DNA from: Emticicia sp. BO119
GTDB lineage: Bacteria; Bacteroidota; Bacteroidia; Cytophagales; Spirosomataceae
DNA: 64,000 nucleotides
NCBI RefSeq assembly: GCF_013912375.1
Contig: NZ_JACETV010000005.1
Location: forward strand, 62,001 to 126,000
Direction of reading: 5' to 3'
Shown: positions 2,923 to 62,595 of the stretch, one piece after another
How positions within the stretch are numbered: position 1 is the first letter of the stretch
Layout: every line of letters begins with the position of its first letter
The notes under the pieces: model-generated
Told to the model about the DNA's origin: nothing
Seen by the model: the letters and a program-made list of their open reading frames with translations, nothing else
Databases searched by the model: none
Made by a program: the position numbers and the translations under genes

Positions 2923-4005
2923 ATGATAAAGTCATTAATTGATAAATTAAGTGAAAAGGATATAGAGGCAATCGTAAATGTTTATACATTATCAGAGTTC
3001 TATTTCCCTACACTTTTTCCTCTCAAATTCACTCCTACACTTAAATGGGAGTCGTTGGAGGCTGATTTTGGCGCACCTGTTGCGGGTGACGTTGTTTCGT
3101 GGGATTCTCGTGCGCCACGTAAAAGAAGAGAAATTGTTTCAAAATTGAACGGAGATATTCCAAAAATCAGTATTGCTCGTGAAAAAACCGAATCTCAGAT
3201 GAATTATTACAATAATTTAAAGAGATATACGGATAGTGCAGCAAAAACAGAAATCCTTAACTGGATTTGGGAAGATCAGAAGTTCTGTTTTGATGGCGTT
3301 AATGCTCGTTTGGAATGGTTGGCTTTAAGAGCTGCATCAACTGGTAAAGTTGTATTGACAAATGCAAACAATGATGGCATCGTTACAGAGTCAAATGTTG
3401 ATTTCTTAATACCAACTGCCAACAAAAAAGGTGCTACAGTCGCTATTACAATGGATAACGCTGCTACTTCAAAGCCAATCAAAGACATTCGCGCAGTTGT
3501 GAAATTAGCAAAAGACGCAGGTAAAAAGCTAAATTACATCTTCACTGACCAAGAGACTATCGATGCTATTCTCGCATCAGCTGAAACTGTATCATTCGTA
3601 GCGCCTTACATTGTACAGGCATTGAACCTGAATGCTACATTGAGCCTTGCTCAATTGAATACTGCATTAAAGGCGCAAGGTCTTCCTGTAATCGGTTTGG
3701 TTGAAAGCTTTATTCAAATTGAAATCAAAGGAGTGCGTACTCCAGTAAATCCTTGGGAGTCAGGTGTAATGTTGTTCTCTGAAATGCCCGTTTTAGGTAA
3801 TACAGCTTACTCAAGATTGGCAGATGAGGATGTAGAAAGTTCAGTTGCTTTGAAGTACAAACGCGATCATGTTCTTATCAAACGATATGCTGTTGAGGAA
3901 CCTTTGACTGAGGTGTGTTTGGCTATGGCTAATGCCTTCCCTGTACTGAACGGAGCCAAATCGAAATGGTTGTTAGACGCGACTCATACAACCTGGACAC
4001 GTTAA
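2923..4005 (+). CDS. major capsid protein, E family
   Basis: A 360-aa protein matching the lambda gpE-type major capsid family in length (about 340-360 aa) and layout: N-terminal strand and helix with FYFPTLFPLKFTPTLKWE, the segment DVVSWDSRAPRKRREIVSKL, and a long helical spine followed by IFTDQETIDAILAS. It would form the icosahedral shell on the HK97 fold. The C-terminal segment RDHVLIKRYAVEEPLTEV, close to the end, is typical of this family. It follows the decoration gene by 55 bp and precedes the connector genes by 1 bp. The best-supported head assignment in the window. Confidence 0.85.
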   Translation: MIKSLIDKLSEKDIEAIVNVYTLSEFYFPTLFPLKFTPTLKWESLEADFGAPVAGDVVSWDSRAPRKRREIVSKLNGDIPKISIAREKTESQMNYYNNLKRYTDSAAKTEILNWIWEDQKFCFDGVNARLEWLALRAASTGKVVLTNANNDGIVTESNVDFLIPTANKKGATVAITMDNAATSKPIKDIRAVVKLAKDAGKKLNYIFTDQETIDAILASAETVSFVAPYIVQALNLNATLSLAQLNTALKAQGLPVIGLVESFIQIEIKGVRTPVNPWESGVMLFSEMPVLGNTAYSRLADEDVESSVALKYKRDHVLIKRYAVEEPLTEVCLAMANAFPVLNGAKSKWLLDATHTTWTR

Positions 4006-13156: not shown

Positions 13157-13834
13157 ATGCCCGAAGAGATTTTTACAGAAATATCAGGTACTGAAACCTC
13201 AGGTGTGACCTATAAAATTGACAATGTCAGTTTTGCTTCATTGGGTGTTTATGTCATGAAAAGTGTTGGTATGCAGGATATGCCTACAATGAAAGAACCT
13301 TTGATAATAGACTGGCCGGACGGGCATGGATTGCAGGTTGACTTAGTTGTGCCTCGGTATAATGCAAGAGAGATAGAATTAGACTGTTTTATCAGGGCGG
13401 CTGGCAAATTAGATTTCTTCAATAAGGTTCGTACTTTCCTGCAATCCCTTCAAAAGCCTGAATTATGCAAGTTAGAGTTCTGGATGTCTGATAAGCCAGT
13501 GATCTATATGGTATATCTGGCTGATGGTGTGAATATTGAAAAGCAATGGCGGGCAAATGATATGTTTGGCACTTTCACACTTAAGTTGATAGAGCCTTCA
13601 CCTGTCAAGAGACTGTTGAAACGTACAGGCAGTGTATCTGTTCTGAGTTTCTCCTCTGAAAATCCGATTGATATATACTGGGGCGATGGAACGAAAGACC
13701 TTGGCAAGTTTGGAGAGGTGAGTATTACACATAGTTATAGCAGTTCAGGTACTTATTATATTTTAATATGTGGCGTGATTGAGGAGATTGAGGATTTTGA
13801 AACTGATGCGAGTTTTGTATGGAGCAAATTCTGA
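13157..13834 (+). CDS. distal tail (Dit-like) protein with PKD-like C-terminal domain
   Basis: A 225-aa protein in the Dit position, before the Tal-like gene. Residues about 15-150 read as the Dit core (YKIDNVSFASLGVYVMKS, then a WPDG turn, then FTLKLIEPSP). The last 60 residues carry the signature of a PKD domain: IYWGDGTKD followed by HSYSSSGTYYI. PKD-type Ig folds on distal tail proteins bind carbohydrate or support the baseplate. It overlaps the next gene by 16 bp. Confidence 0.65.
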   Translation: MPEEIFTEISGTETSGVTYKIDNVSFASLGVYVMKSVGMQDMPTMKEPLIIDWPDGHGLQVDLVVPRYNAREIELDCFIRAAGKLDFFNKVRTFLQSLQKPELCKLEFWMSDKPVIYMVYLADGVNIEKQWRANDMFGTFTLKLIEPSPVKRLLKRTGSVSVLSFSSENPIDIYWGDGTKDLGKFGEVSITHSYSSSGTYYILICGVIEEIEDFETDASFVWSKF

Positions 13835-15813
13835 TATACAAACCCAATGGAGATTCAGAAGCTATTAATTCTAATAGCCCAATTGGTGGTATCAAAGAAG
13901 CCACGCATAGAAAAGTGCTTTTAGGGGAGGATGTCATAACCATGACGGTAGAATCTGCAATAGCCCGGAACTTTGGAATAGGCGATTATATCAAAATATT
14001 AGATCTGCCTACCTACAAAATCAATCAGATACCAGTTGTAAGAAAAAATGCAGCAAGGAATTTGGTATATGACCTTGTTTTTGAAGGTTTACAATATGAT
14101 CTGGGGAGAGTATCCTATAGAAATACTGATATAAGCAGTTTTAATAACTCGTCAGATTTTAGTTTGATCGGGGATATTGAGATGTTTTTGAATGTATTGA
14201 TTAATAATGCCAATCGGGTATTTGGTGCTGATAAATGGGCATTAGCTACTTTTCCGGAAAATACGGAAACCAAAAATTTACTATTCAATAACGAAAACTG
14301 TTTATCTGTCCTTCAAAGGCTTTGTGATGAATATAAATACCAGTTTACCATTACTGAAACCCCTTTACAAAAGCTCTTACACGTCAGAGAAGTAGGTGAA
14401 GCACTGGAATATAATTTCATGTATGGACAAGGAAAAGGCCTTTATTCGCTGTCGAGAGAAAACGTAGACAGCAAAAACATTGTAAATACCCTTTGGGCGT
14501 ATGGTAGCACCAAAAACCTGCCTGCCACCTATAAAGACAATTCTCCAAGGCTAAGATTAGGGTTAGATGAGGATTTGCCAATCCTCGAAGTTACTTCAAG
14601 AACGGCATACGGCATTTTTGAAGGGAGTGTCACTTTTGAAGAGGTGTATCCACACCGAACAGGGGTAGTTTCAGCAATCAATACAGAAAACAGATTTGAG
14701 TTTGTTGATAGTGCGATGGATTTTGATTTGAATGCTTCCAGTGGAGGAAATACACTTTATCTGATACCCGGAAACGTAGCGAAAATCATTTTTCAGACAG
14801 GGAATCTGGCCGGCTATGAATTTGAGATTGAAAAATACGTGCATAGCACAAAAAAGTTCACGCTCAAACAAAACAAAGACCCGAAAGGCATTGATATGCC
14901 CTCAGCGACGGAATCGGCCTTCCAGATTGCCACAGGTGATACTTATGTGATAGTGGATATTGTTATGCCTCAGTCATATATCAATGCGGCTGAATCAGAA
15001 CTGGAGGCAAAGGCACTGGAATATCTGGAAAATAATTCGGTACCAACCGTCAAATACAGCCTTGAGCTTGATGAATTTTTTATCAAAAGTACAGCTGAAA
15101 CGCTCAATGTATTTGAAGTTGGGGATACTGTCAATATAGAAGATGTTGCACTGAATATCAATTCACGAATCAGGATCATTGAATATACAAGAGATGTGCT
15201 CAGGCCATACAAGTACAGTCTTGTTATCAAGGATACACCGCAAAATAATGCTGCCAGACGGTTTATAGTTCAGAATAACTATATCAGAGATTTTATGAAG
15301 TTACAGGGTCTTGATGACCCTACCAAGGCCCTGACAAACTGGAGAAGTGATACGCAGATATTATCTGAGATACCGAGGCATTTGAACGAAACAAAGCAAC
15401 TCCCTATCGGGAGTAAGTCGGAGAAGATAACGTTAGGTAATGGTGATTCAATTACAAGTTTTTTGGGCGGTGTGGAGATGACTAATGTCATTGGTGGCAG
15501 GGCAAAAATCGGGACAGATCTATTGCAAAGCAATACAGATTATACTTTCAAATTCCCGGACGCGAATCCAGATGGCATAACCGTGTTAAATGACTGGAAT
15601 TATATCGTATCAAAGCCAACTTTTTTTTTTCAGCAGGATACACCAGCAAGCACATGGACGATTATTCACGGGATAGGAAAAAAAGTGATCTGCCAGGCAT
15701 TTAATATTTCAGGAGAACAGGTATTTGGCAAGATTCAACACATCAGCGATAACGAGTTACATATAACATTCAATACTCCAGAAACAGGCTACGCACTGTT
15801 GATGGGTATCTAA
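13819..15813 (+). CDS. tail-associated (Tal/baseplate hub-like) protein
   Basis: A 664-aa protein following the Dit-like gene, where siphoviruses encode the hub protein that closes the tail tip. The N-terminal half, with GDYIKILDLPTYKINQIP and LVYDLVFEGLQYDLGRVS, resembles the gp27-like hub domains of Gram-negative siphophages. No peptidase or lysozyme motif is visible, so cell-wall cutting seems delegated to other proteins. A run of nine T occurs at 15623-15631 inside the gene; the frame stays open. Confidence 0.6.
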   Translation: MEQILIYKPNGDSEAINSNSPIGGIKEATHRKVLLGEDVITMTVESAIARNFGIGDYIKILDLPTYKINQIPVVRKNAARNLVYDLVFEGLQYDLGRVSYRNTDISSFNNSSDFSLIGDIEMFLNVLINNANRVFGADKWALATFPENTETKNLLFNNENCLSVLQRLCDEYKYQFTITETPLQKLLHVREVGEALEYNFMYGQGKGLYSLSRENVDSKNIVNTLWAYGSTKNLPATYKDNSPRLRLGLDEDLPILEVTSRTAYGIFEGSVTFEEVYPHRTGVVSAINTENRFEFVDSAMDFDLNASSGGNTLYLIPGNVAKIIFQTGNLAGYEFEIEKYVHSTKKFTLKQNKDPKGIDMPSATESAFQIATGDTYVIVDIVMPQSYINAAESELEAKALEYLENNSVPTVKYSLELDEFFIKSTAETLNVFEVGDTVNIEDVALNINSRIRIIEYTRDVLRPYKYSLVIKDTPQNNAARRFIVQNNYIRDFMKLQGLDDPTKALTNWRSDTQILSEIPRHLNETKQLPIGSKSEKITLGNGDSITSFLGGVEMTNVIGGRAKIGTDLLQSNTDYTFKFPDANPDGITVLNDWNYIVSKPTFFFQQDTPASTWTIIHGIGKKVICQAFNISGEQVFGKIQHISDNELHITFNTPETGYALLMGI

Positions 15814-43733: not shown

Positions 43734-45371
43734 ATGAGAAAATTCTACTTTAACCTGCTTTTACTTTGCTCACATTCAGCTTTTGTATTGGCACAGAATT
43801 TCGATTCTTCCAATCTGCCCATTATATTTATTACTACACAAGGCCAGATCTATGACGACCCCAAAGTGAAAGCTAAAATGGAAATCATCTACAACGGCCC
43901 TGGTAAAACTAATAACCTGACAGACAAACCCAATCATTATAGTGGCTCTATCGGTATCGAAACCCGTGGTTCGTCGTCACAGATGTTTCCTAAAAAAAGC
44001 TATGGATTTGAACTGTGGGACGATAAAAACAATGCCATTGATGCCAGTTTGTTTGGTATGCCCGAAGAATCTGATTGGATACTCTATGCGTCTTATAACG
44101 AAAAAAGCCTGATGCACAATGTACTTACCATGAAGCTGGCACGCGAGATGGGCATGTATGCCAGCCGTACCCAATATGTAGAACTATTTATAAACAACCA
44201 GTATATGGGGGTATATGTATTTATGGAGAAAATCAAACGGGCAAAAGGTAGAGTAGATATAGCCAAACTAAAAGAAGACGACCTGACAGGCGATGATATT
44301 ACAGGCGGATATATTTTTAAAGTAGATAAAACTACAGGTACAGGTTTAGGTGGCTGGACCTCGCAATACCAGAATAACCCTCCCGTTACCAATCGTACCT
44401 ATTACCAGTACGAAGCCCCCAAAAGCATTACACCAGAACAAAAAAAATATATCAGCACCTATGTATCCAATGCCGAGTCTGCGCTAAAGAGCAGTAGTTT
44501 CAGAGATAAGGAAAACGGCTACCGGAAGTATTTTGATACACATTCGTTTATTGGTTTGTTTCTGACTAATGAGATTTCAAAAAACGTAGACGGGTATCGG
44601 ATCAGTACTTTTTTCTATAAAGATAAAGACAGCAAAGGGGGGAAAATAAAGGCCGGTCCACCCTGGGACTACGACATTGCCTATGGCAACGGAAATTATT
44701 GCGAAGGCCAATACTATCAGGGGTTTTCTTATAAATTCAATAATGTTTGTCCGAACGATGGTTTTCAGGTGCCATTCTGGTGGGAACGTATGATGGAAGA
44801 TTCTGCCTTTGTACGTGAATTGGGAGAAGAATACGCCTTTCAACGCAAACGGGGAGCATTTCAGTTAGACAAAATCTATAAGTATATCGATAGCCTGACT
44901 ACCCAGTTACAGGCTCCGGCTTTCCGTAATTTTCAAAGATGGCCGATTTTAGGAGTTTACGTCTGGCCACAACCAAATCCTATTTCGAGTACGTGGTTTG
45001 GTGAGGTTGACGAACTAAAACAATTTGTTGCCAACAGATTGATATGGCTCGATGCGAACATCAAACAGCCAGCCGATTTGAGGATTACTGGAAATGAAGA
45101 AAACGGCCCGAATATACTGTCCATGAACGCCTACCCGAATCCGTTTCTGGACAGGATTTACGTAAACATTCATTCGCCCAAATCCGAAAAAGCAAATCTG
45201 ATTTTGTATGACGCCAATGGCAGGATACTCACCCGGATTCAGGAGACCTTGCAGATAGGCGAAAATCAGGTAATGATTCAGGTACCATCAACTTTGCACC
45301 TCAGCAGTATTAACCTGCTGCAATTAGAAGCAAGCGGACATAAAATTGTAAAGAAGATGATACAACAGTAA
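43734..45371 (+). CDS. CotH kinase family protein with T9SS sorting domain
   Basis: A 545-aa secreted protein: signal peptide ending FVLAQ, then a CotH domain with GSIGIETRGSSSQMFPKKSY, ESDWILYASYNEKSLMHNVL, the ELFINNQYMGVYVFMEKIKR block and GPPWDYDIAYGN, as in CotH-like atypical protein kinases. The last 80 residues are a type IX secretion sorting domain (AYPNPFLDRIYVNI, LYDANGRIL, ending VKKMIQQ). It is therefore cargo for the T9SS and ends on the cell surface or outside. It lies 25 bp after the nuclease gene. Confidence 0.88.
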   Translation: MRKFYFNLLLLCSHSAFVLAQNFDSSNLPIIFITTQGQIYDDPKVKAKMEIIYNGPGKTNNLTDKPNHYSGSIGIETRGSSSQMFPKKSYGFELWDDKNNAIDASLFGMPEESDWILYASYNEKSLMHNVLTMKLAREMGMYASRTQYVELFINNQYMGVYVFMEKIKRAKGRVDIAKLKEDDLTGDDITGGYIFKVDKTTGTGLGGWTSQYQNNPPVTNRTYYQYEAPKSITPEQKKYISTYVSNAESALKSSSFRDKENGYRKYFDTHSFIGLFLTNEISKNVDGYRISTFFYKDKDSKGGKIKAGPPWDYDIAYGNGNYCEGQYYQGFSYKFNNVCPNDGFQVPFWWERMMEDSAFVRELGEEYAFQRKRGAFQLDKIYKYIDSLTTQLQAPAFRNFQRWPILGVYVWPQPNPISSTWFGEVDELKQFVANRLIWLDANIKQPADLRITGNEENGPNILSMNAYPNPFLDRIYVNIHSPKSEKANLILYDANGRILTRIQETLQIGENQVMIQVPSTLHLSSINLLQLEASGHKIVKKMIQQ

Positions 45372-51471: not shown

Positions 51472-51519
51472 ATCACGGCAAACCGTGATTGCTTCCGGTT
51501 ACATTTCATGAGAAATTTG
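51472..51519 (+). promoter_or_regulatory. operator-promoter, copy 1 of 3
   Basis: ATCACGG-CAAA-CCGTGAT palindrome at 51472-51489; its last T begins a TTG (-33) at 51489-51491; after exactly 20 nt comes GAAATTTG (-7) at 51512-51519. The start codon follows 7 bp later, so the mRNA would be nearly leaderless. Identical layout precedes two further paralogues. Confidence 0.75.
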
Positions 51520-51526
51520 TAAAAAA

Positions 51527-52675
51527 ATGTCCATGAAAAATTTTAGCTATTTCTGCATCATCTTTGTGCCTTTACTGAGTTCTGCACAATCAACGATGAT
51601 GCTCCCAAACAGGATTGAATTACCCAAAGTAGCTACTTTAGTTACCTGCACCAGCAATGAAATGGGAAGAATGGTTTATCGCACCAGCGATAACAAAGCC
51701 TATTATTGTAATGGCACCGACTGGCAGGAAATGACTGGCGGAGGGTTTACGCTCCCCTATTCGGGCACAGGTGATACCAATTCAAACCTCTTCAGAATTA
51801 TTAATGAAGGCAATGGCAGAGCTATCTATGCCGAAACCCAGGGCAATGCACTCTCCATAGGGATTCAGGCAGTAGCCTCTCATACAGCACCGGATATTGA
51901 CAATTTTGCCGTTTTTGCTCAGAATAAAAGTACCAATGCCTTAGGTGCTGGGGTTTTTGGGCGCCACGAAGGCACAGGCATTGGCGTTTATGGGGTTACT
52001 CCTAATGCTGGAATCGGTGTAAAAGGTCTGGCCTTTCCGGCAGAAATGGGTGGCACTGGCACTGGTATTGGTGTCTGGGCAGAAAGCACAGCCGGTTATG
52101 GGCTTTATGCCAAAAGTAAAAGCTGGTCGGCAGTTAAAGCCGAAAGTGAAACAAGCTTCGGGTTGCATGGATTGAGTAAAGATGATGCCGGTGTTCGTGG
52201 ACAATCGGTAGATGGCATTGGGGTATATGGGACAAGTTATACAAAGTATGCAGTATATGGCTATAGCTACGGCACCGAAGGATATGGTATTTATGGTTCA
52301 GGACTTTATGGAAACGCCGGATATTTTGATGGAAATGTAAAAGTAAAACGGGATGTATTTGTCGGGGAAGACAAAGGTATTATCCAGAATACCAACGGCA
52401 CACAACTGAAATATTACACAGGCACAGTCGGTTTTGAATATACCCTTACGGCCTTTAGTACATTTATCTCTGACGAAATACCTATTGCTACTTTTTCTTC
52501 AAAGCCTGTGGTATATATTGCCGATGTTACAAATCAGTCTGGGTCATATTACAAAGTTATTGTAACGGTCGTAGCGGTAACTAACAACTCTGCCAGGCTC
52601 AGGTTTTACAATGCAAGCGATGCCCAGATTACCTTTAGCGGTACCTGGAATTTAGTAGCTATTGGTCCAAAATAG
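51527..52675 (+). CDS. secreted fibre-like protein A
   Basis: A 382-aa protein with signal peptide (CIIFVPLLSSAQ). The N-terminal module GRMVYRTSDNKAYYCNGTDW is like that of the prophage tail fibre at 15825. The middle is a run of short beta turns (GIGVYGVT, GIGVWAES, GYGLYAKS, GIYGSG), suggesting a trimeric beta-helix shaft. The C-terminal domain ends TWNLVAIGPK. No sorting domain or anchor is seen. The ATG at 51533 (MKNFSYF) is an alternative start. Confidence 0.7.
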   Translation: MSMKNFSYFCIIFVPLLSSAQSTMMLPNRIELPKVATLVTCTSNEMGRMVYRTSDNKAYYCNGTDWQEMTGGGFTLPYSGTGDTNSNLFRIINEGNGRAIYAETQGNALSIGIQAVASHTAPDIDNFAVFAQNKSTNALGAGVFGRHEGTGIGVYGVTPNAGIGVKGLAFPAEMGGTGTGIGVWAESTAGYGLYAKSKSWSAVKAESETSFGLHGLSKDDAGVRGQSVDGIGVYGTSYTKYAVYGYSYGTEGYGIYGSGLYGNAGYFDGNVKVKRDVFVGEDKGIIQNTNGTQLKYYTGTVGFEYTLTAFSTFISDEIPIATFSSKPVVYIADVTNQSGSYYKVIVTVVAVTNNSARLRFYNASDAQITFSGTWNLVAIGPK

Positions 52676-52702
52676 CCTGAAAATTTCGTATTAAAGCAAA
52701 AT

Positions 52703-52750
52703 ATCACGGCAAACCGTGATTGATTCCGGTTTCTTTTCATGAGAGATTTG
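52703..52750 (+). promoter_or_regulatory. operator-promoter, copy 2 of 3
   Basis: Same palindrome at 52703-52720, TTG at 52720-52722, 20-nt spacer, GAGATTTG at 52743-52750. About 70 bp from the palindrome to the start codon are nearly identical to copy 1, showing that gene and promoter were duplicated together. Confidence 0.75.
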
Positions 52751-52758
52751 TATAAAAA

Positions 52759-53904
52759 ATGTCCATGAAAAAACTATTCACCTTACTTTTCTACATTGTT
52801 TGTAGTTTGCCATTAATAGGGCAAAGTATCACTATTTCGCCCACTTCAAATACTGCCATTCTTCATTCAAGCAGTACCATAAATGGTTTTATTTTACCAG
52901 CTATGTCAAAATCCCAGCGAGAAGCAATCAGTAACCCGCTGAATGGTCTGCTGGTGTTTCAGAATACTGTCAATGCCAATAGTGATAAGGGATTTTACTG
53001 GTATAATACGGCCTACTGGTATCGGTTGGCTGATGAATCGGATCTGGGCTGGAAAATATTCAACGATAATCAGTACAGCAAGGTTTCAGGCAATGTAGGA
53101 ATCGGAACAACTTTGCCAGATGATAAACTTCATGTACGAACCTCTACAGCCTCGGCAGGAATTACTTTCGATGGTGTGAACCCTACTTTTCAGTTCAGAC
53201 AAAAAGAGGCTTCAGGTGCTACCTATACCGACAAGGGGTTTATTCAGTTAGCCAGTGATAACCTCAGAATCGGCGTAAACAGTAGCAATTCAGGAGGTAG
53301 GTTCATTATCAGAACCCATGGCGCTGACCAGATAGAAGTAGATGGGAGTGGCGGAGGTGGCAGGATGTATTTTAATTATGGTGGTGCTAATGTCGGGTAT
53401 ATTTCGCCGGCTTCTTCGGGCAATTTATACATTGCAACTTCGGGTAATTCTGCCGATTTTGTTGGTCTGAATGGTATTCTGTTTGCTACAAATGGCGGCC
53501 GTGTGGGTATTAATACCACTACACCGCAAGAGAAATTAGATGTGCAGGGCAATGTAAGGATATTGGGCAGTATTGCAATGGCCGGAGAAATTACCAAGAC
53601 CAATGTGGCAGAAGGGAGTTTTCTGCCGCTTTGCTACGGGAAAGTAAGCTTTGGTGGCGACCGTGCCTCAGGTTCAAGTAATTTTACCTCTGAAAATACA
53701 TCGACGGGGCATTATACTATTTATAATGCGAGTATTCTCTATACCTCTACTATTATCGTAACCCTTAATAGCTCCAATGCCCAGATAGTGGCCTCAGCAG
53801 GTTGTTCAGACGGCGAGTGTCATGTGTATCTGAAAGACGGTTTCAGTAATAATAACAGTTTCGCCTTTATAGACCAGCCCTTCTATTTTGTAATTTATAG
53901 ATAA
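52759..53904 (+). CDS. secreted fibre-like protein B
   Basis: A 381-aa protein starting MSMKK like protein A, with signal peptide ending PLIGQ. The module GLLVFQNTVNANSDKGFYWY and the closely following WYRLADE resemble the fibre adapter of A. Two IGT-type beta-roll elements are present (VGIGTTLPDDKLHVRT and VGINTTTPQEKLDVQG), the same kind as in the prophage fibre at 17036. The C-terminal head domain has a CSDGEC pair and ends FYFVIYR. Followed after 2 bp by a decayed copy. Confidence 0.7.
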   Translation: MSMKKLFTLLFYIVCSLPLIGQSITISPTSNTAILHSSSTINGFILPAMSKSQREAISNPLNGLLVFQNTVNANSDKGFYWYNTAYWYRLADESDLGWKIFNDNQYSKVSGNVGIGTTLPDDKLHVRTSTASAGITFDGVNPTFQFRQKEASGATYTDKGFIQLASDNLRIGVNSSNSGGRFIIRTHGADQIEVDGSGGGGRMYFNYGGANVGYISPASSGNLYIATSGNSADFVGLNGILFATNGGRVGINTTTPQEKLDVQGNVRILGSIAMAGEITKTNVAEGSFLPLCYGKVSFGGDRASGSSNFTSENTSTGHYTIYNASILYTSTIIVTLNSSNAQIVASAGCSDGECHVYLKDGFSNNNSFAFIDQPFYFVIYR

Positions 53905-53906
53905 CC

Positions 53907-54101
53907 ATGAAAAAACTAATCCTGCTACTCAGCTTTGCTACTCCATTAGGAAGTTATGCTCAATCCACAACTATTTTGCCCGATGCACTTAGTGTACCCA
54001 GAGTTACCTCTCTGGCCACATGTAATTCAATAGAAAAAGGGAAACAGGTACTTAACACTACCGGCAACAAAATGTACCATTGTTATCAGAAAACTATATA
54101 A
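53907..54101 (+). pseudogene. truncated fibre-like protein (N-terminal remnant)
   Basis: A 64-aa frame with an intact signal peptide (ILLLSFATPLGSYAQ) and the same N-terminal module as protein A: ILPDALSVPRVTSLATCNS against LPNRIELPKVATLVTCTS, then KQVLNTTGNKMYHCY. It stops where A continues into the shaft. It has no promoter of its own, 2 bp behind gene B. A remnant of a third tandem copy is the simplest reading. Confidence 0.7.
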
Positions 54102-54149
54102 AGTACAGACACCCGGAGTTTTCTGATTGTAGGGCCTGAATAAAACAGC

Positions 54150-54536
54150 TCAGTCTATTTCATCTGCCAGCAATTCATTGCCTGCTTTGTCATAGTAGGC
54201 AATGGTTAGCTGGCTGGTATTGAATGTCCATTTTTCTACTCCACTATCAGCTAACCCCTGTATCATCTGAAAATAATCGGTCTTGCCCTGCGCGTGCAAT
54301 TCCAAATGTATTTTCAGGGCTTCAAGGTTACTCGTTTCAGCAATAGCAAGTTTTTCATGTATGGCAGAAGAAACCAACAGCTGATTTTCGGCTCCATAAT
54401 ATTCCGAATGCCCGTCAGTAATGAATGAATCATATTTCATGACACCTATCTCATTTAAAGCATGGAGGTACTGAGGCAAGGTAGATTTTTTGCCGAAGTT
54501 ATTATGGATTTCGTTGATTTGGTCAAGTGTGAACAT
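54150..54536 (-). CDS. DUF1398 family protein
   Basis: A 128-aa protein resembling DUF1398 (YbcV-like, sometimes labelled phage envelope protein): YLHALNEIGVMKYDSFITDG, then HSEYYG and the closing DSGVEKWTFNTSQLTIAYYD. Members occur in many bacteria outside phages, and function is not known. It follows the propeller gene by 2 bp on the same strand. Confidence 0.8.
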   Translation of the reverse strand: MFTLDQINEIHNNFGKKSTLPQYLHALNEIGVMKYDSFITDGHSEYYGAENQLLVSSAIHEKLAIAETSNLEALKIHLELHAQGKTDYFQMIQGLADSGVEKWTFNTSQLTIAYYDKAGNELLADEID

Positions 54537-54538
54537 AG

Positions 54539-55465
54539 CTAATCTTCAATTTTATACTTTAATAAAACGAGCGATTCTAACTTTCTGGTATCAATTACCT
54601 CGTTGGTATGGTCATTAAAATTAGCTAATTGCACATTTTTTATGAAATAGACGGTATCACCCACAATATCAAAAGTGGTCGGTGATTGAAAAGTTGCATC
54701 AAAATGAATTAATTCTTTAATGCCCACAATCTTGGTTCCGTCTTCGTTCAGGAAATACCTCATTAATCCTTTTTCTACCATTCCTATCAGGCTATTCCGG
54801 TAAAATTTCATACCATCAATACCTGCTGATGCTTTATCTGGCTGATTGAGGATTTTCTTTGTCTGCACATCTACCACTCTGATTCCGTTGACCGATGCCA
54901 GATATAGTCTGGTATTATCGTCAGAAATAGCAATGCCGTTAGAATGTCCTACGGCCACTGTGTCTAAATACACTTCTATATTTTTATCGGGTCGTTTGAT
55001 AAGATAGATTTTATTACTCTCAGAGTCCGTAACAAAAATCTGGTTAGACGCACTCACTGCCAGGTCGTTCAGATACCCGTATGGCGCAATATCTGTTTTA
55101 TACCGGGCAATTAATTGCCTGGTTTTTGTATTTAATAGCAGCAAAACGGAAGTGTTATTCTGTTTTTGTAAACTATTGCTCAAAGCATATAAAGTATCAC
55201 CTTTGATGGTCATTCCGAAACCGGATTGGTAATCGTATTGGTTACTTTCAATAAAATCAGTTGCATTGCGGCCGTCTATCTCCGATGTTACAATCTTGTT
55301 TTTTCTGAGGCTGCTTAAAAACAACTTACCTGATCGGGCATCAACTGCAATTCCTTCAGGTATGAGGTCTTTTTCAAAAGTCAGATTCACGGTTTGAGAG
55401 TCTGATTGTGTGCGGCAACTGATAATTGTCAGGAAAAGGAGTAAAAATAGAAGCAGGTTTTGCAT
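54539..55465 (-). CDS. beta-propeller lipoprotein (SMP-30/NHL-like)
   Basis: A 308-aa lipoprotein: the ATG at 55465 gives a signal and lipobox (LTIISC, Cys about 17). The frame is open for 25 further codons upstream, but those lie before the signal. Propeller blades read IPEGIAVDARSGKLFLSSL, YLNDLAVSASNQIFVTDSES and NGIAISDDNTRLYLASVNG, as in SMP-30 or NHL folds that bind metal or sugar lactones. Ligand unknown. Confidence 0.8.
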   Translation of the reverse strand: MQNLLLFLLLFLTIISCRTQSDSQTVNLTFEKDLIPEGIAVDARSGKLFLSSLRKNKIVTSEIDGRNATDFIESNQYDYQSGFGMTIKGDTLYALSNSLQKQNNTSVLLLLNTKTRQLIARYKTDIAPYGYLNDLAVSASNQIFVTDSESNKIYLIKRPDKNIEVYLDTVAVGHSNGIAISDDNTRLYLASVNGIRVVDVQTKKILNQPDKASAGIDGMKFYRNSLIGMVEKGLMRYFLNEDGTKIVGIKELIHFDATFQSPTTFDIVGDTVYFIKNVQLANFNDHTNEVIDTRKLESLVLLKYKIED

Positions 55466-55781
55466 TGGTTGGGATAATTTTGGCTGAAACAGGAAGTAAA
55501 GCTCTTTTTCAAAAGTACTTAATAAAATGTGCATGCGCAAATCTGCCTGCTTTAACCATGTACTCCCTATTCCCGTTCATAAATGAGTCTGAAATAGTTA
55601 TTCAATCATACAAAATTTCTATTTTAAATACGCTCCTTCCTTGCGCAAGCCTATTCAATTTACTAACCTTACAACACCTTCGTTAGATAGGATAGGTATA
55701 ACACCGCAGGCGAATCACTTTTAACTTGCCACTTTCCTATTATTTTGCTTATTTAGGGTCTCTTAAAACCTCAACAAACTT
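55466..55781. other. gene-free divergent region of about 316 bp
   Basis: Between the leftward propeller lipoprotein and the rightward M1 peptidase. Open frames here are short and read as non-coding. Promoters for both genes must lie here, but I find no exact TAnnTTTG box at a sensible distance, and no repeat or hairpin worth recording. Confidence 0.4.
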
Positions 55782-57719
55782 ATGCGAGCCCTATCAGGAG
55801 TTCTACTACTTATCTCTTCGGCTGTTTTTGCCCAACAAACTGTTCAGCAACGAACGGCAATCGAAACTACCAGACGTACAATCCGACAAGATGTACCCAT
55901 GACCAACTCAATCCGTAAGGCTTTTGCGGCAGGTACACGTGATTTTTCCGGTAAACCAGGGCCAAACTACTGGCAGTTGGAAACTGATTATACCATTCAG
56001 GCAAGCCTTGACCCATCTACCCAGACTATTACAGGCACTGAAAAAATATTGGTGCATAACAACAGCAATGAAGATTTAAGGAATCTCGTTTTGCGCCTCG
56101 ATCACAACATTTTCCGCCCGGAAGTACCCCGTGGTTTTTCAACTCCTGCAGAAGCCACCGAGGGTATGGTAGTAACAGGTATCAAAATAGCCGGAGCAGA
56201 GATTGACCAAAAAGCCATAAGAGGGCTGAACCGAACTATTGCCACCGTTACCTTGAAAGAACCTATCAAGGCCAGAACAAACGCAGAGGTAGAAATAGCC
56301 TGGCATACCAAATTACCGGGTGGGCCAAATGGTGTAGGACACCGTATGACCCAACGTTTTGATGACAGACTTTTTCAGCCTACGCAATGGTTTCCTCGCC
56401 TGGCCAAATACGATGACCTGAGAGGTTGGGAAACCAGCCAGTATATGGGGCCCGCAGAGTTCTATAACAATTTCGGCAAATTTGATGTAAGCATCACCGT
56501 ACCTGGTGGCTGGATAGTAAGTGGTACTGGTGTGCTGCAAAATCCTGAACAGGTTTTAAATGAAACAACCAGAAAACGTTTAACAACTGTTCTGAATAGC
56601 AACGATGAAATAACAATCGTAAGCGAAGAAGAAGCAGGCAAAGCGACCGCCCCCGGTGATAAACTTACCTGGCATTTTGTGGCCGATAAAGTAAACGATT
56701 TTGCATGGGCTACAGCCGGGAAATTCGTCTGGAAAGCCACACGTGCCACCATTCCGGGCAAGGGGCCGATCCCTGTTTATATGTATTATCTGCCCGAAAG
56801 AGCCAGAATGTTTGCAAAGGCAGGAGAAATTACCCGCCATGCGTTAGAGTTTTATTCTGCCCTCTGGACACCCTACCCTTTCCCACAAATGACTTTGCAG
56901 GATGGCCCGAGTGCAGGAATGGAGTATCCGATGGTGATAAACTCTAATCAGGGAGCCGCCGACCATGAAACGGGGCATCAATGGTGGCCGATGGTAGTAG
57001 GTAATAATGAAACCCGCTATGGCTGGATGGACGAAGGCTTCAACCAGTATATGAATATCCTGTCAGGCGCTGATAGCAAAGGTGTACCTTATAAACTGGA
57101 TGGCCTCGGCCAAAGCTATGGCAGACAAAGCGGCGATGAGGACGAAGCTCCAATGATGTGGAGTGCCAATGATGCAGGTAGCGGGTATCGGTTCCAGACC
57201 TACGGCAAAACTCCTCTGATGCTTTCTATGTTAGGAGGTATTGTAGGTGATGAAGCCGTAATGAAAGCCATGAAAGAATATGCCAGCGTATGGAGCTTCA
57301 AACACCCATCCCCCTGGGATTATATGTATTTCATGAATAATGCACTTGGCCAGAATCTTGACTGGTTCTGGTATTACTGGTTATTTACTACTGAATCGGT
57401 AAATGGCTCTGTTCAGGAGGTAAAGACTAACAAAGATAAAACCATTGTAACAGTACATCAGGCCGGAGAAATGCCTTCGCCTGTGGTATTGAAAGTTGAG
57501 TTCGAGCCGGAAGGTCCGGCTATTAAAACACCGGCCAATGCTAAAATGCTTGATGCCAATACCGCTCTCGTAACCTGGCCTGTTTCGGTCTGGTTTGATG
57601 GTAATCGTACCTTTGAAGCTGAAATGAATTTCGGCAAACGAAAAATCAGACAAATCACTTTAGACCCGAATGGCCGATTCCCTGATAAGGACATTAAAGA
57701 CAACATTTGGCCAAGATAA
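55782..57719 (+). CDS. M1 family zinc aminopeptidase
   Basis: A 645-aa exported peptidase (signal LSGVLLLISSAVFAQ). The zinc site is HETGHQWW at about residue 395 with the second Glu in YGWMDEGFNQY; the substrate-binding motif is GMEYP in place of GAMEN, as in several Bacteroidota M1 enzymes. The N-terminal beta domain has LRNLVLRLDHNIF. It would remove N-terminal residues from peptides in the periplasm. Confidence 0.92.
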   Translation: MRALSGVLLLISSAVFAQQTVQQRTAIETTRRTIRQDVPMTNSIRKAFAAGTRDFSGKPGPNYWQLETDYTIQASLDPSTQTITGTEKILVHNNSNEDLRNLVLRLDHNIFRPEVPRGFSTPAEATEGMVVTGIKIAGAEIDQKAIRGLNRTIATVTLKEPIKARTNAEVEIAWHTKLPGGPNGVGHRMTQRFDDRLFQPTQWFPRLAKYDDLRGWETSQYMGPAEFYNNFGKFDVSITVPGGWIVSGTGVLQNPEQVLNETTRKRLTTVLNSNDEITIVSEEEAGKATAPGDKLTWHFVADKVNDFAWATAGKFVWKATRATIPGKGPIPVYMYYLPERARMFAKAGEITRHALEFYSALWTPYPFPQMTLQDGPSAGMEYPMVINSNQGAADHETGHQWWPMVVGNNETRYGWMDEGFNQYMNILSGADSKGVPYKLDGLGQSYGRQSGDEDEAPMMWSANDAGSGYRFQTYGKTPLMLSMLGGIVGDEAVMKAMKEYASVWSFKHPSPWDYMYFMNNALGQNLDWFWYYWLFTTESVNGSVQEVKTNKDKTIVTVHQAGEMPSPVVLKVEFEPEGPAIKTPANAKMLDANTALVTWPVSVWFDGNRTFEAEMNFGKRKIRQITLDPNGRFPDKDIKDNIWPR

Positions 57720-57736
57720 GATAAACAGCTATATCC

Positions 57737-57781
57737 ACCGTGGCACGGCTACTACTCGTCCGAGATTGGCTGTGCCACGGT
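57737..57781 (+). repeat. hairpin after the M1 peptidase gene
   Basis: Arms ACCGTGGCAC/GTGCCACGGT, extended by three further pairs, with a loop of about 19 nt, 17 bp after the peptidase stop. No T tract follows. It may protect the 3' end or be an extragenic palindromic element. Confidence 0.6.
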
Positions 57782-57899
57782 TAATGCACTCAGAAATCTC
57801 TCTGACTCTACAGGAAAATCCTAAAGTAAAAATATAGGAGCTAAGCCTACCGGCGCATTCTTGGATGAGTATATGCGTGACACCGTAGGCCGTGGTGAG

Positions 57900-58322
57900 C
57901 TATTTGACCCGCTCAATACCATTTAAAATTCCTCCTTTAATCATCTTCCCATAACCATCATCAGGCAATAAATCGGCAAATGAAAGAGCCAGTTGATAAT
58001 TTTTTCTGGCCTTAGCAAAGTCATTCAGGTCTTCATAGCATTTTCCAATATTTAAATACAAAGATGGATACGTAGCCCTTATCGAATCATCATTGATGTT
58101 CAAGGCATGCTGCAAGGCTGTTTCGTCCCATTTCAATTTATCAGCTATGGTTTTCTGATGCCGCGCTACATAATGTGCTGAGGTGAATTTCTCAAAATCA
58201 TTGGCTGCTTCATCCCATGCTTGCTGAAAAAGTTGTAGCGCCTCTTCTTTTTTTCCTTCTCCCTCCAACATCATGCCTTGTCCGCACATTTGTACGATTT
58301 TGTTGTTTTTGTCGAACTGCAT
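57900..58322 (-). CDS. TPR-repeat protein
   Basis: A 140-aa cytoplasmic protein with two or three tetratricopeptide-like units: GKKEEALQLFQQAWDEA and YLNIGKCYEDLNDFAKARKN, then YQLALSFADLL. Such proteins mediate protein-protein contacts; no partner is apparent. It lies 73 bp downstream of the Crp/Fnr regulator on the same strand and may share its transcript. Confidence 0.75.
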   Translation of the reverse strand: MQFDKNNKIVQMCGQGMMLEGEGKKEEALQLFQQAWDEAANDFEKFTSAHYVARHQKTIADKLKWDETALQHALNINDDSIRATYPSLYLNIGKCYEDLNDFAKARKNYQLALSFADLLPDDGYGKMIKGGILNGIERVK

Positions 58323-58395
58323 TATAATTATTAATTAATGAGCTACAATAGTAATAGGTCTTATACCCCCGAAGCATTGATATACATCAAAAAAA

Positions 58396-59010
58396 CTATT
58401 TAGATTTCAATCGGCTCAAGGTTTCCTGCGTTATATCCAGAAATGAAGCCAGAATCCTATTCGAAAGCCTTTGAATATAAATTGGCGTTTCAGCCATTAG
58501 CTTATCAAAGCGTTGTTTCGCCGAAAGCGTTACCAGATTTTCTATTTTCTTATTCTGATAGAGATAAGCCATTTCCAGCAGCATTCTATAAAACTCCGCC
58601 CAGGCTGGCAATTCGGCTATTAATCCATGAAAATCTTTATGGCTGATGACATATACTACTGAATCTTCTAAGGCATCAACCAGCTCAAGCGAGGGTTGTT
58701 GTGAGATAAAACTGGCAATGGAAGTCGCAATAGAACCCTCAAAGGCCACATATCTTGTTTTCTCATGCCCTTGTGTTGTAAGGTAATACGTACGGATGCA
58801 GCCGCTATGAACAAAATATAATTCCTTACAAATCTCTCCTTCAGAAAGCAAAAAAGTATTCTTTTTTATAGTTTTTGGCTTAAAATAAGAGGCTATTGAA
58901 TCGATTTGCTCATCGTTAAGCTTTGTATTGATTCGAAGGTAATTTCTGAGTTTTTCTTTCACGCAATCAGGTATTATGAAATTCTTGCCTTTAAAATTAC
59001 TATTAATCAA
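58396..59010 (-). CDS. Crp/Fnr family transcriptional regulator
   Basis: A 204-aa regulator: cyclic-nucleotide-binding-like beta-roll (NTFLLSEGEICKELYFVHSG at about 52-71, then TRYVAFEGSIATSIASFI), dimer helix, and a short C-terminal winged helix whose recognition helix reads ASFLDITQETLSRLKSK and ends the protein. No Cys cluster for iron-sulphur binding. This is the common Bacteroidota form, with unknown effector. Its gene starts 82 bp from the third ATCACGG palindrome. Confidence 0.88.
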   Translation of the reverse strand: MINSNFKGKNFIIPDCVKEKLRNYLRINTKLNDEQIDSIASYFKPKTIKKNTFLLSEGEICKELYFVHSGCIRTYYLTTQGHEKTRYVAFEGSIATSIASFISQQPSLELVDALEDSVVYVISHKDFHGLIAELPAWAEFYRMLLEMAYLYQNKKIENLVTLSAKQRFDKLMAETPIYIQRLSNRILASFLDITQETLSRLKSK

Positions 59011-59092
59011 AGTCAGATTTCAGAAACTGTTTGAGTTAATATTGTTTTAATAGATATTCTGGAAATCTGATATAAATCCGATTAAGATAAAT

Positions 59093-59140
59093 ATCACGGC
59101 AAACCGTGATTGACATTGAAAAAGCAGGATAAGATATTTG
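59093..59140 (+). promoter_or_regulatory. operator-promoter, copy 3 of 3
   Basis: Palindrome at 59093-59110, TTG at 59110-59112, 20-nt spacer, GATATTTG at 59133-59140. The spacer sequence differs from copies 1 and 2 while the palindrome, TTG, spacing and -7 box are kept, which points to functional conservation rather than recent duplication. Confidence 0.75.
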
Positions 59141-59155
59141 CTGAAAAAACCACCC

Positions 59156-60262
59156 ATGAAAACATCTACAAAACTTTACTTATGCTTTGCATTTATCTTG
59201 TCAGGAAACATCATATTTGCTCAGACAGCAAAAGTAGTTGATACACCCGATGGAACAGTCATCAGCACGATCGGAGGTAATGAAATTCCACATTCTACTG
59301 CCATTCTGGATATCAGAAGTACTAATAAAGGCATTTTATTGCCTCGTATGACAACTGCTAACCGTGATGTTATCAGTGTTCCGACAGCAGGTTTACTAAT
59401 CTATAATACTTCCACCAATCAGTTCAACTACCACAATGGTTCGTCCTGGCAGGTAGCTTCTTTAGGTAATCAGTGGGGGGTTAATGGGAGTGTGCTGCAT
59501 CATAGCGGACAAGTGGGTGTGGGTACTTCAACAATGACTAATGCCAATACTTTTCTGACGGTAAGAGGAAATCTGGGAGGTACTAATCTGGAAGGTATGT
59601 ATATAGATGCCAGCAGCACCACCGGAAAGGCCTTTTATGGTTATTCGGTCAACGACAGTTCAAGAGCTTATCATTATTATGATGGCAGTACCTCAAAATG
59701 GAATCTGGCTATGGGAGGTTTAGATAGAATAACAGTTACAAGTAGCGGTTTCGTAGGCATCGGAACAACCTCCCCTACATACAGATTAAGTGTGGGAGGC
59801 AGTACTTACATATCTGGCGGTGCTTACATTGCCAGCACCTCATTCATTGGTGATTATTTAGAGGTAGATGGCTCAATTTATGGGTATAACAATCTATCTG
59901 TGAGTGGAGTAGCAACAATAAAAGGCGGTAAAGGAGTAGCCTACAATGCCAGTAGTTCTCAAAATCTCAGAATATTCAGATTTACCACAGACTACATTCA
60001 TGTAGCATTAGCAGCACATGCATCAACTTCTACTACAGTGACATTTGCAGGAGGTTTTACTTCAACACCTTATGTTATGGTTGGAGATATTGATTTGTCA
60101 GGCGGAACGGCAGGTGAATTACACCGGGTAATACTGGTATTAAGTGGCTGTTCCTTAAATACTACAAACGGAGATACTACTTGCAATGCAAAATTGATAA
60201 ACACAGATAATAGCAGTTTAGATTATAGTATCAGATGGAACTGCGTGGCTATCGGCTATTAA
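59156..60262 (+). CDS. secreted fibre-like protein C
   Basis: A 368-aa protein with signal peptide (CFAFILSGNIIFAQ). Adapter module GLLIYNTSTNQFNYHNGSSW, then two IGT-type beta-roll elements (VGVGTSTMTNANTFLTVRG and VGIGTTSPTYRLSVGG), and a C-terminal head ending IRWNCVAIGY, close to NLVAIGPK of protein A. The frame is open from a TTG at 59138, but that codon is part of the -7 box, so the ATG at 59156 is used. It overlaps the histidine kinase end by 14 bp. Confidence 0.72.
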   Translation: MKTSTKLYLCFAFILSGNIIFAQTAKVVDTPDGTVISTIGGNEIPHSTAILDIRSTNKGILLPRMTTANRDVISVPTAGLLIYNTSTNQFNYHNGSSWQVASLGNQWGVNGSVLHHSGQVGVGTSTMTNANTFLTVRGNLGGTNLEGMYIDASSTTGKAFYGYSVNDSSRAYHYYDGSTSKWNLAMGGLDRITVTSSGFVGIGTTSPTYRLSVGGSTYISGGAYIASTSFIGDYLEVDGSIYGYNNLSVSGVATIKGGKGVAYNASSSQNLRIFRFTTDYIHVALAAHASTSTTVTFAGGFTSTPYVMVGDIDLSGGTAGELHRVILVLSGCSLNTTNGDTTCNAKLINTDNSSLDYSIRWNCVAIGY

Positions 60263-62480
60263 CCAGCAATTCATTCTGACCCAAAGGCACTAAAATCGTA
60301 AACTTAGTGCCTTTGCCCGATTCTGAACCAATAAACAGCTCTCCTCCTATAGCCTCAACGCGACCCTGAATATTTTTCAGTCCAATGCCTTTCTGCTGGT
60401 TTTCCTGTATGCCACGTCCGTTATCTATTACTTCCAATAGCAAATCCTTACCTTTCTGAGCCAGATAAATCGTAGCGCCAGTAGCTTTTGAATGCTTGAT
60501 GATATTCTGCATCAGTTCAAGACAAATGACGTAAATATTCAGATCAATATTTTTATTACGATACGTTAATTCATCAATTACCAAGTCGAAATAAATGCGC
60601 TGATTATGATTGATTTTCTGAATCATGCGTTTAAGTGCATTCGCCAGACCTTCTTTTTCCAGTTCTTCGGGCATCAGATTATGTGAGAGAATCCTGACTT
60701 CCGAATAAGCATTCTCAGTCATAGATAATATATTGGCATAAATCTGCTGCTCTCTTTCAGACAGGTGTTCGGGGCTGATATTATCTAACGATATATTGAT
60801 AGCCGTCAGTAAACTACCTAAATTATCGTGCAGGTCTGCGGCCATACGTTTACGCTCAATGGTTTGCCCACGCTGCATGGCTTCCTTGATTTCATCATAA
60901 GACTTCTGCAATTCTGCTGTTCTTTCCCTTACCTTTTGCTCCAGTTGTTCGTTCAGCAATTCTGCTTCTTTTTTCCGTTTCTGTATATTCCTGAAGTTCC
61001 AGGCCAGAGATAGCAGTAGCAGCCCAAGCAAACCAACACCAACCCACAAGAATTGCTGAGTCTGCTGTTTTCTTTCGGCTTCGGCTGACAAGTTTTCGAT
61101 ACGATTCTGCTGTAAAAGTCTTGTCTTTTCCGATGAGGTTTTCAGTTGTTCTATCTGAAACTTTCTTGCCAGTTCGTCTCTCTCATTCTTTTCATAAAGT
61201 GCCAACCTTTCAGCTTCCGCATTACGGCTTTTAAGTAGTAAAATTTCATTTGCCCGCAGCGATGAATCGATAATCGCCTTCTGTAATAATTCCTGTCGCT
61301 CAAACTCTGCTTTGGCTCTTTCTGTCTCCAGTTTCTTCTGCAACCCCAACACCTGTGTCAGTTTCCGACGATTACTTATTGAATCGTTCATGATATTGTA
61401 TCTTTCGTAGGCTGTCAGGGCTAAATCATATTTTTGCAGTTTTTTAGCAGACAGATACTGCACTTCATAATTATCAGCTTCGTGTTTGATAGCCATTGCC
61501 GCCTGCGCCAATGACTCTGATCTGGTAGTATATTGCAGAGCTAAAGAATAATCTCCTGATAAATATGCCGCCTTTGCCAGATAAGTATAACAAGCAAAAA
61601 GATAAAATCGGCTATTTGTTTCTTCAAAATACCTGACAGCTTTTTTGACATTAGCTATTCCTTCTTCAATTCTATCCAGATGTATAAGGCAACGGCCTAT
61701 TTCCATCAATGTAACCATTTCAATAGAAGTAGACAGCTTACCCTCATGGATATAATCCAATGCCTTCCGGTAATTTTTCAGTGCTTCGGCAAATTGCTTT
61801 TGTTCGGCATAAATCACACCTATATCATCATATTTATACGCATAGCTCAAAGCCCATTTACCGATTTTTTCTTTGGCAATACCCATTTTATAATCATTGG
61901 CCTGACAGATACTTATAATATCTAAGGCTTTTTTATGATAAATAAGGGCGTTTTCGTAATCACGCAAGAGCTGATAACTACTGGCAATGCGGGTTAATGA
62001 ATAAGTAGCCAGTATTAAATCTGCCCCTTTCAGATTCTCGGCTTTTTTATTGGCTTCCAGACTAATATCCAGTGCTTTCTGGTAATCTGTTTTAATGGTG
62101 TAAGCAATGCCTATATAATCATAGGCCTTGAAAATCTGGGCATTATACTGAATATGGGTGGCATATTTCAATAATCTTTCCGCATAACGCATCATCGAAT
62201 CAGGGTTTTTCTGTGCTATCCGGTTATTATAATACATATAGGCCAGTCGCTCTGTGGCCAACACTATTAGGGTATCTTCTGTCCTGTTTCTGGTTTTGTG
62301 TTCAAGTGTGTAAAACAACCTTTTAGTAGCCACAAAAATACTATCGGCATTCACGGGTTTACGGGCAAGGTCAGCCGCCTTAAAAGTATCATTCAGATCA
62401 GGCAAGCGAACCGATTGGGCAAAGCTATTGGAATAGAGGAGGGTCAGAACTATTGAAAAATAGAAGCTAATATTTTTCAT
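60249..62480 (-). CDS. TPR sensor histidine kinase
   Basis: A 743-aa kinase with signal-type N-terminus (IVLTLLYSNSFAQ), a periplasmic TPR array (about 40-390), a membrane helix (VGVGLLGLLLLSLAWNF), a coiled coil, a HisKA_3 domain with phospho-acceptor His near 550 (ERKRMAADLHDNLGS), and a HATPase domain (NIIKHSKATGA, VIDNGRGI, GIGLKNIQGRVEAIGG). This is the NarL/LuxR-type sensor common in Bacteroidota. No response regulator gene adjoins it. The ATG at 62480 is preferred over one ten codons upstream. Confidence 0.9.
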   Translation of the reverse strand: MKNISFYFSIVLTLLYSNSFAQSVRLPDLNDTFKAADLARKPVNADSIFVATKRLFYTLEHKTRNRTEDTLIVLATERLAYMYYNNRIAQKNPDSMMRYAERLLKYATHIQYNAQIFKAYDYIGIAYTIKTDYQKALDISLEANKKAENLKGADLILATYSLTRIASSYQLLRDYENALIYHKKALDIISICQANDYKMGIAKEKIGKWALSYAYKYDDIGVIYAEQKQFAEALKNYRKALDYIHEGKLSTSIEMVTLMEIGRCLIHLDRIEEGIANVKKAVRYFEETNSRFYLFACYTYLAKAAYLSGDYSLALQYTTRSESLAQAAMAIKHEADNYEVQYLSAKKLQKYDLALTAYERYNIMNDSISNRRKLTQVLGLQKKLETERAKAEFERQELLQKAIIDSSLRANEILLLKSRNAEAERLALYEKNERDELARKFQIEQLKTSSEKTRLLQQNRIENLSAEAERKQQTQQFLWVGVGLLGLLLLSLAWNFRNIQKRKKEAELLNEQLEQKVRERTAELQKSYDEIKEAMQRGQTIERKRMAADLHDNLGSLLTAINISLDNISPEHLSEREQQIYANILSMTENAYSEVRILSHNLMPEELEKEGLANALKRMIQKINHNQRIYFDLVIDELTYRNKNIDLNIYVICLELMQNIIKHSKATGATIYLAQKGKDLLLEVIDNGRGIQENQQKGIGLKNIQGRVEAIGGELFIGSESGKGTKFTILVPLGQNELLVNSR

Positions 62481-62595
62481 GGCATGCCGTTGTTTGGATG
62501 AAAATTCCAATCGAATAGTAAATTTACGTTTTAAAGGGTCGAATTATTCATTCTGCATCAAGTTTTTTGCAAAAAGTTATTAAGCGTTTTCTCTT

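Follow-up and report, generated by a model that had tools for sequence, protein, structure and literature searches.

In Porphyromonas gingivalis, the TPR sensor kinase FimS and the response regulator FimR activate surface-fiber genes (PMC5706477, in its accessible parts), and in Bacillus the NarL/FixJ-family regulator ComA recognizes the box TTGCGG-N4-CCGCAA (PMC4797271, in its accessible parts). Bacteroidota promoters of the sigma-A (sigma-ABfr) type carry TAnnTTTG at -7, according to the accessible text of PMC7366714 and PMC9723704. Here we describe a palindromic operator, joined to a promoter, that precedes three genes for secreted fiber-like proteins in a 64,000-nucleotide stretch of Emticicia sp. 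BO119 (C24:62001-126000 of a 6.57-Mb genome in 28 contigs, G000). This whole stretch is called the window; G, C and L numbers are our handles for genomes, contigs and loci.

The window palindrome resembles the ComA box in being an inverted repeat, ...CGG-N4-CCG..., in which a 4-nucleotide (nt) spacer parts two short elements; ComA acts as a dimeric activator, and its helix-turn-helix belongs to the superfamily considered here (PMC4797271, in part). The window palindrome differs in its arms, which are ATNACGG by our search pattern (ATCACGG in the window) rather than TTGCGG, in that the inverted repeat abuts the TTG of the -33 region (direct repeats were not separately searched for), and in its Bacteroidota promoter type. 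The promoters themselves resemble those of sigma-ABfr in their TTTG-type -7 box and a TTG near -33 (PMC7366714 and PMC9723704, in part), but here the -33 element has an operator fused to it, with the spacing held constant, and all three window boxes begin with GA, not the consensus TA. FimS/FimR, likened by description, is the nearest functional analogue, pairing a TPR kinase with a regulator that controls surface fibers in Bacteroidota (PMC5706477, in part); it differs in that the window targets have no Pfam family, and no record named Porphyromonas appeared in our scan for the element. A published description of this operator or motif was not found in the open literature, which is weak evidence, as most subscription papers lay outside its scope.

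A palindromic operator at a fixed distance from the promoter

A preliminary description of the window had proposed that three genes share one operator-promoter design, and the exact palindromes at the three positions bear this out (Table 1). All three copies read ATCACGG-CAAA-CCGTGAT without a difference. In each, the final T of the palindrome opens a TTG, exactly 20 nt follow, and then comes a GAnATTTG box, with the ATG 7, 8 and 15 nt beyond it in copies 1, 2 and 3. Copies 1 and 2 have similar spacers and precede neighboring genes. Copy 3, as had also been pointed out, lies 6390 bp beyond copy 2 with an unrelated 20-nt spacer, yet keeps the palindrome, the spacing and the -7 box. With TAnnTTTG placed at -12 to -5, after the accessible part of PMC9723704, the palindrome spans -52 to -35, is centered at -43.5 and lies over the -33 TTG, and the predicted leaders of the three copies are 3, 4 and 11 nt.

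The whole genome contains seven exact copies of ATCACGGN4CCGTGAT, the 4-base loop being left free, and none of the reversed control pattern; when two mismatches are allowed, the contrast is smaller (22 against 8). The genome scan that had been suggested as a check placed all seven exact palindromes in the same context, with a TTG, then 20 nt and a box whose last four bases are TTTG (six) or TTTA (one). With a looser pattern, two more sites show the full composite of palindrome, TTG, spacing and box (C22:251266 and C22:253947), and one further match, C2:5579, lacks it. Nine promoters are recognized in this genome, eight with TTTG and one, at C12:579604, with TTTA. Within the genus, five of the 11 genomes hold the palindrome, in 23 distinct exact copies (7, 8, 6, 1 and 1). 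Twenty-one of them have TG on the promoter side, and every one of these has TTTG (18) or TTTA (3) at a single offset; at the other offsets tested, from 12 to 39, TTTG occurs once, at 17. The two remaining copies, one in G004 and one in G008, are each followed in tandem, 22 bp on, by a second palindrome that retains the composite with one mismatch. These loci, L017 and L019, have tandem palindromes ahead of a single promoter. When arm position 3 is left free, this genome has eight composites and 8 of 222 family genomes contain the element, with none for the reversed control; spacer sequences are mostly unrelated between sites. Because seven exact palindromes stand against no reversed ones, and because the TTT(G/A) offset is constant in the genus, the repeat exceeds chance, and the three-copy operator-promoter observation is confirmed as real.

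To place the element in a wider context, we scanned a genome collection with one genome per species (84,980 species; records of the window's own genome may be absent). The composite was found in 55 stretches of 8 kb or less, 52 from Bacteroidota, one from Rickettsiales and two from Acidobacteriota assemblies, with taxonomy taken from record titles. Among 55 distinct Bacteroidota composites, at positions not forced by the pattern, the second -7 base is A in 48, the first two are TA in 32, and 204 of 220 loop bases are A or T; the unforced A and TA are what a real TAnnTTTG box would be expected to show. Leader lengths could be scored at 53 of the 61 sites, and were 11-68 nt in 40, at most 4 nt in six, and longer in seven. 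The description of the mRNAs as nearly leaderless thus fits the predicted leaders of the three window copies but not the sites in general, and very short leaders appear to be a local feature of the window copies rather than a general rule.

Regulators and kinases linked to the operator

Two-component genes lie close to many of the sites. A response regulator gene is found within 500 bp in 21 of the 52 Bacteroidota stretches (two of these being cut-off fragments), and a regulator or HisKA_3-type kinase gene in 26; anywhere in the stretch, one or the other is present in 28 of 52, compared with none of the three non-Bacteroidota stretches. These genes were recognized by similarity to seed proteins. 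By arithmetic, about 0.5% of this genome falls within 500 bp of any of the 20 NarL genes. Some sites in Runella, Flavobacteriaceae, Muribaculaceae and other Bacteroidales immediately precede or flank a response regulator gene, and a kinase gene often adjoins it; in the Runella genomes G166 and G170 the order is regulator, site, fiber-like gene, kinase. The earlier description of the targets as a set of surface proteins is not supported as it stood, as in other families the response regulator gene itself is a target. Pfam places Response_reg and GerE in all three site-linked regulators tested (L080, L089, L091), and HisKA_3, HATPase_c and TPR in both the window kinase and the L080 kinase.

The recognition helix reads NTVE or NTIE in all 25 readable regulators that share a stretch with a site. 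Some members of this set lie as far as 2-3 kb from the site (L079, L086, L088, L129, L133), and S_L125_2111 is counted in it, as it reads NTVE but is missed by the regular expression. L136 and L141, truncated and unreadable, were left outside, as were two sequences that fell to an E-value cut of 1e-12, namely the fragment L156:4378-4724 and the regulator L160:5774-6487. In this genome, one of the 20 NarL regulators found has the NTVE helix. A set of 74 distinct regulators gathered by homology alone comprised 11 Asn types, re-read from the alignment, and 63 others. The fetched flank held a site for three of the 11 and for none of the 63, and three further Asn types (G004, G007, G008) had a site 2-3 kb away. 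On the tree, the site-linked regulators require five label changes, and as three of these are forced by well-supported branches, several clades of regulators are involved.

A decayed locus adds to this picture. Just upstream of its one site, E. aquatica carries remnants of a regulator and a kinase, in pieces (L078:4990-5901). The first regulator probes were weak and the first kinase probe gave no match, but probes from the L089/L090 subfamily were clear for both: the regulator remnant is 58% identical to the L089 regulator over 134 residues (E 2e-37), the kinase remnant matches at E 2e-23, and INTVE can be read by eye in the remnant DNA. In G004, G007 and G008 this locus is occupied by an intact regulator from a different subfamily. 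With one conserved locus beside two regulator subfamilies, one intact and one decayed, regulators could swap while the operator persists. We propose tentatively, with the balance tilting slightly against us, that Asn before TVE/TIE marks, across several NarL-type clades in Bacteroidota, the readers of a common ACGG-N4-CCGT operator at constant distance to the -33/-7 promoter, and that these regulators are replaceable while the operator stays. If true, this would amount to a phylum-wide, sequence-readable code by which the regulons of orphan kinases and regulators, surface-fiber sets included, could be predicted from DNA alone.

For the window operator, the candidate regulator is encoded on contig C28. 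It aligns over its full length with the solved VraR, and an alignment was also obtained with the GerE regions of the regulators linked to sites. Of the 222 family genomes, 6 carry an orthologue at 64% identity or more (next best 52%; at most 13 candidates were scored per genome), and five of these six belong to the eight genomes in which an exact composite occurs (hypergeometric P 7.7e-8). In G121, the sixth, GTCACGGCAAACCGTGATTG-N20-TAGCTTTG, which has one mismatch, separates the regulator gene from a fiber-like gene cut by the contig end. The assignment of the C28 regulator was made because of its helix motif, its homology to site-linked Runella regulators and this co-occurrence. The window itself encodes a histidine kinase, tail to tail with fiber gene 3 (Pfam test on coordinates 60249-62510), whose phosphoacceptor region is 80% identical to that of the C28 kinase, which is also of HisKA_3 type (Pfam); the next best kinase among 19 regulator loci taken from this genome reaches 56%. 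Judging from this similarity, the orphan window kinase and the C28 kinase probably both feed the C28 regulator.

We consider it likely that a NarL-type two-component system uses the palindrome as a class-II-like operator to drive a dispersed regulon, with the C28 regulator as the candidate. A HisKA_3-type sensor kinase, which in the window has a TPR region that looks extracytoplasmic, would phosphorylate a NarL/FixJ-type regulator, and a dimer with Asn in its NTVE/NTIE helix would then bind ATNACGG-N4-CCGTNAT centered at about -43.5. The downstream edge of the bound dimer would rest on the TTG of the -33 region, and from this class-II-like position the regulator would help the housekeeping Bacteroidota sigma factor to start at the -7 box exactly 20 nt on. 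The regulon would comprise the nine recognized promoters of this genome, mostly for secreted fiber-like proteins, which one family of signal-responsive regulators probably switches on together. The computation shows the operator with its fixed geometry and conservation, the linkage in the genomes, the helix correlation and the co-occurrence. From these patterns we infer binding, phosphotransfer and activation rather than repression, and the fiber role of the targets is likewise inferred; an activator is likely in view of the invariant spacing, of window boxes that depart from the consensus TA and of a predicted edge that reaches over the -33 element. A TPR sensor kinase would thereby be connected, through the operator, with a family of secreted fiber-like proteins encoded at scattered places. 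Bacteroidota can carry many NarL-type regulators, as the 20 found here illustrate, and their promoters are unlike the textbook type; a defined operator whose position is fixed and which goes with a single helix motif would offer a direct route to assigning regulons.

Counter-evidence and rival explanations

Several observations weigh against this assignment. Neither a regulator nor a kinase is present in 24 of the 52 Bacteroidota stretches, 13 of those 24 being Emticicia records. Three of the 11 Asn types gathered by homology, namely the C28 regulator and the orthologous ones of G001 and G007, have no operator near their own genes. The C28 kinase has no significant TPR match. The Asn-type regulators L203 (G145) and L225 (G149) also have no site nearby, and no site with zero or one mismatch was found anywhere in G149. 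The 25 site-sharing regulators are related within groups and are not independent, and the list of 20 regulators in this genome, drawn from a single homology search that applied a cut-off, may be incomplete. ComA functioned poorly from an inverted repeat placed at the class II position and better from a direct repeat adjoining the -35 region (PMC4797271, in part).

Some rival readings keep the operator and change its mode of action or its regulator. A regulator of the same kind could act as a repressor that covers the -33 region, as the palindrome overlaps the -33 TTG and binding there could block polymerase. This is unlikely: the constant spacing in 21 of 21 genus copies and the GA boxes in 3 of 3 window copies fit an activator better, and NarL-family regulators are mostly activators. 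That another NarL-type regulator of this genome, or more than one, reads the site is quite unlikely, a degree less probable again. Twenty such regulators were found, on a list that may have gaps, site-linked regulators elsewhere belong to several clades, and the locus-A regulator, which is site-linked in G004, G007 and G008, has no close orthologue here. On the other hand, the NTVE helix occurs solely in the C28 regulator among the 20, and none of the 63 non-Asn regulators, gathered regardless of sites, had a site in its fetched flank.

Proteins encoded beside the sites were also weighed. LytTR-like genes of about 100-130 amino acids lie near sites in L069, L071, L075, L079, L080 and L086 (Pfam was run for L071 only), but that their products bind the palindrome is very improbable: matches occur in just 3 of the 55 scanned stretches, all Emticicia (L126, L143, L162), the gene is itself the first behind the promoter in L162 and L086, and LytTR proteins typically read direct repeats. 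A still fainter chance attaches to the Crp/Fnr-like protein with a cNMP_binding domain, whose gene diverges from fiber gene 3 with copy 3 between them. A phmmer search found no homologue among the open reading frames of L077, L083 and L087, which have orthologous sites, or of L068-L071, and the 55 stretches gave no match; this neighbor was rejected as the regulator, its gene not being conserved beside orthologous sites. We give almost no credence to the palindrome being a repeat that arose by chance, a site of recombination or the hairpin of a terminator. An RNA hairpin could form, and copies 1 and 2 belong to neighboring genes with similar spacers, but no T-run follows the palindrome, copy 3 lies between divergent genes, the spacers are mostly unrelated, and both the promoter geometry and the regulator linkage are kept across families. 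The fixed TTG-20-TTTG context contradicts all three, and a terminator or recombination site was rejected on sequence context.

Genes behind the promoters and other features of the window

Table 1. Operator-promoter elements, fiber-like genes and candidate regulatory genes (window positions unless a contig is given)
Feature	Position	Strand	Remarks
Operator palindrome copy 1, ATCACGGCAAACCGTGAT	51472-51489	+	Exact match; predicted -52 to -35, center -43.5
TTG of -33 region, copy 1	51489-51491	+	Overlaps last base of palindrome
-7 box copy 1, GAAATTTG	51512-51519	+	Predicted transcription start about 51524
Secreted fiber-like protein 1, 382 amino acids	51527-52675	+	Second ATG 51533; no Pfam or PHROGs match
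Operator palindrome copy 2, ATCACGGCAAACCGTGAT	52703-52720	+	Exact match
-7 box copy 2, GAGATTTG	52743-52750	+	Predicted transcription start about 52755
Secreted fiber-like protein 2, 381 amino acids	52759-53904	+	Second ATG 52765; weak PHROGs tail/tail-fiber matches
Crp/Fnr-like gene beside copy 3	58396-59010	-	cNMP_binding (Pfam)
Operator palindrome copy 3, ATCACGGCAAACCGTGAT	59093-59110	+	Exact match
-7 box copy 3, GATATTTG	59133-59140	+	Predicted transcription start about 59145
Secreted fiber-like protein 3, 368 amino acids from ATG 59156	59156-60262	+	PHROGs tail fiber 1.6e-05
Histidine kinase, candidate sensor, 743 amino acids from ATG	60249-62480	-	TPR, HisKA_3, HATPase_c (Pfam); signal peptide and transmembrane segment by eye
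Candidate regulator (C28 regulator)	G000:C28:101803-102435		Only Asn-type found here; HisKA_3 kinase adjoins

The label "fiber-like" is putative, drawn from signal peptides and Gly-rich repeats seen by eye and from weak PHROGs tail-fiber matches for two of the three window proteins. None of the three has a Pfam family at E 0.001, and with E up to 0.5 there is one match only, below its cut-off, for protein 3. AlphaFold2 models of proteins 3 and 1 had a mean predicted local distance difference test score of 36.5 and 36.7, a very low confidence that makes them unusable. Protein 1 aligns with the products of L068 and L069 and with relatives that have a common N-terminal segment ending around YCNGxxW. 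Proteins 2 and 3 can be aligned to one another and to the Runella proteins whose genes follow this operator, to which protein 3 is about 25-29% identical.

Other promoters of this genome precede three more secreted fiber-like genes (L068, L069 and L071:6354). In L071, two tandem sites precede a lipoprotein-like gene and then a LytTR gene. At the L070 promoter (L070:6300-6621), a secreted protein of 989 amino acids begins only about 270-290 nt downstream. A dispersed set of surface proteins under one operator, as first envisaged, describes most targets, which are secreted and fiber-like, but lipoprotein-like and LytTR genes belong to the set too. A LytTR-like gene is also the first gene behind the promoter in L080. 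The 989-amino acid protein of L070 has an HZS_alpha match, and the orthologous loci L073 and L085 likewise have a conserved operator-promoter with a long gene (989-990 amino acids) about 270-290 nt on.

Elsewhere in the window, positions of about 2300-26000 may be a prophage, with Phage_cap_E at 2923-4005 and Prophage_tail at 13819-15813; three other proteins tested from this region were without a Pfam match. A CotH-kinase protein is encoded at 43734-45371, with a type IX secretion sorting domain just below its cut-off. Directly after fiber gene 2, at 53907-54101 (+), lies a fiber-like open reading frame of 64 amino acids that looks truncated, its counterparts at L077:9192-10088 and L084:4306-5217 being about 300 amino acids long.

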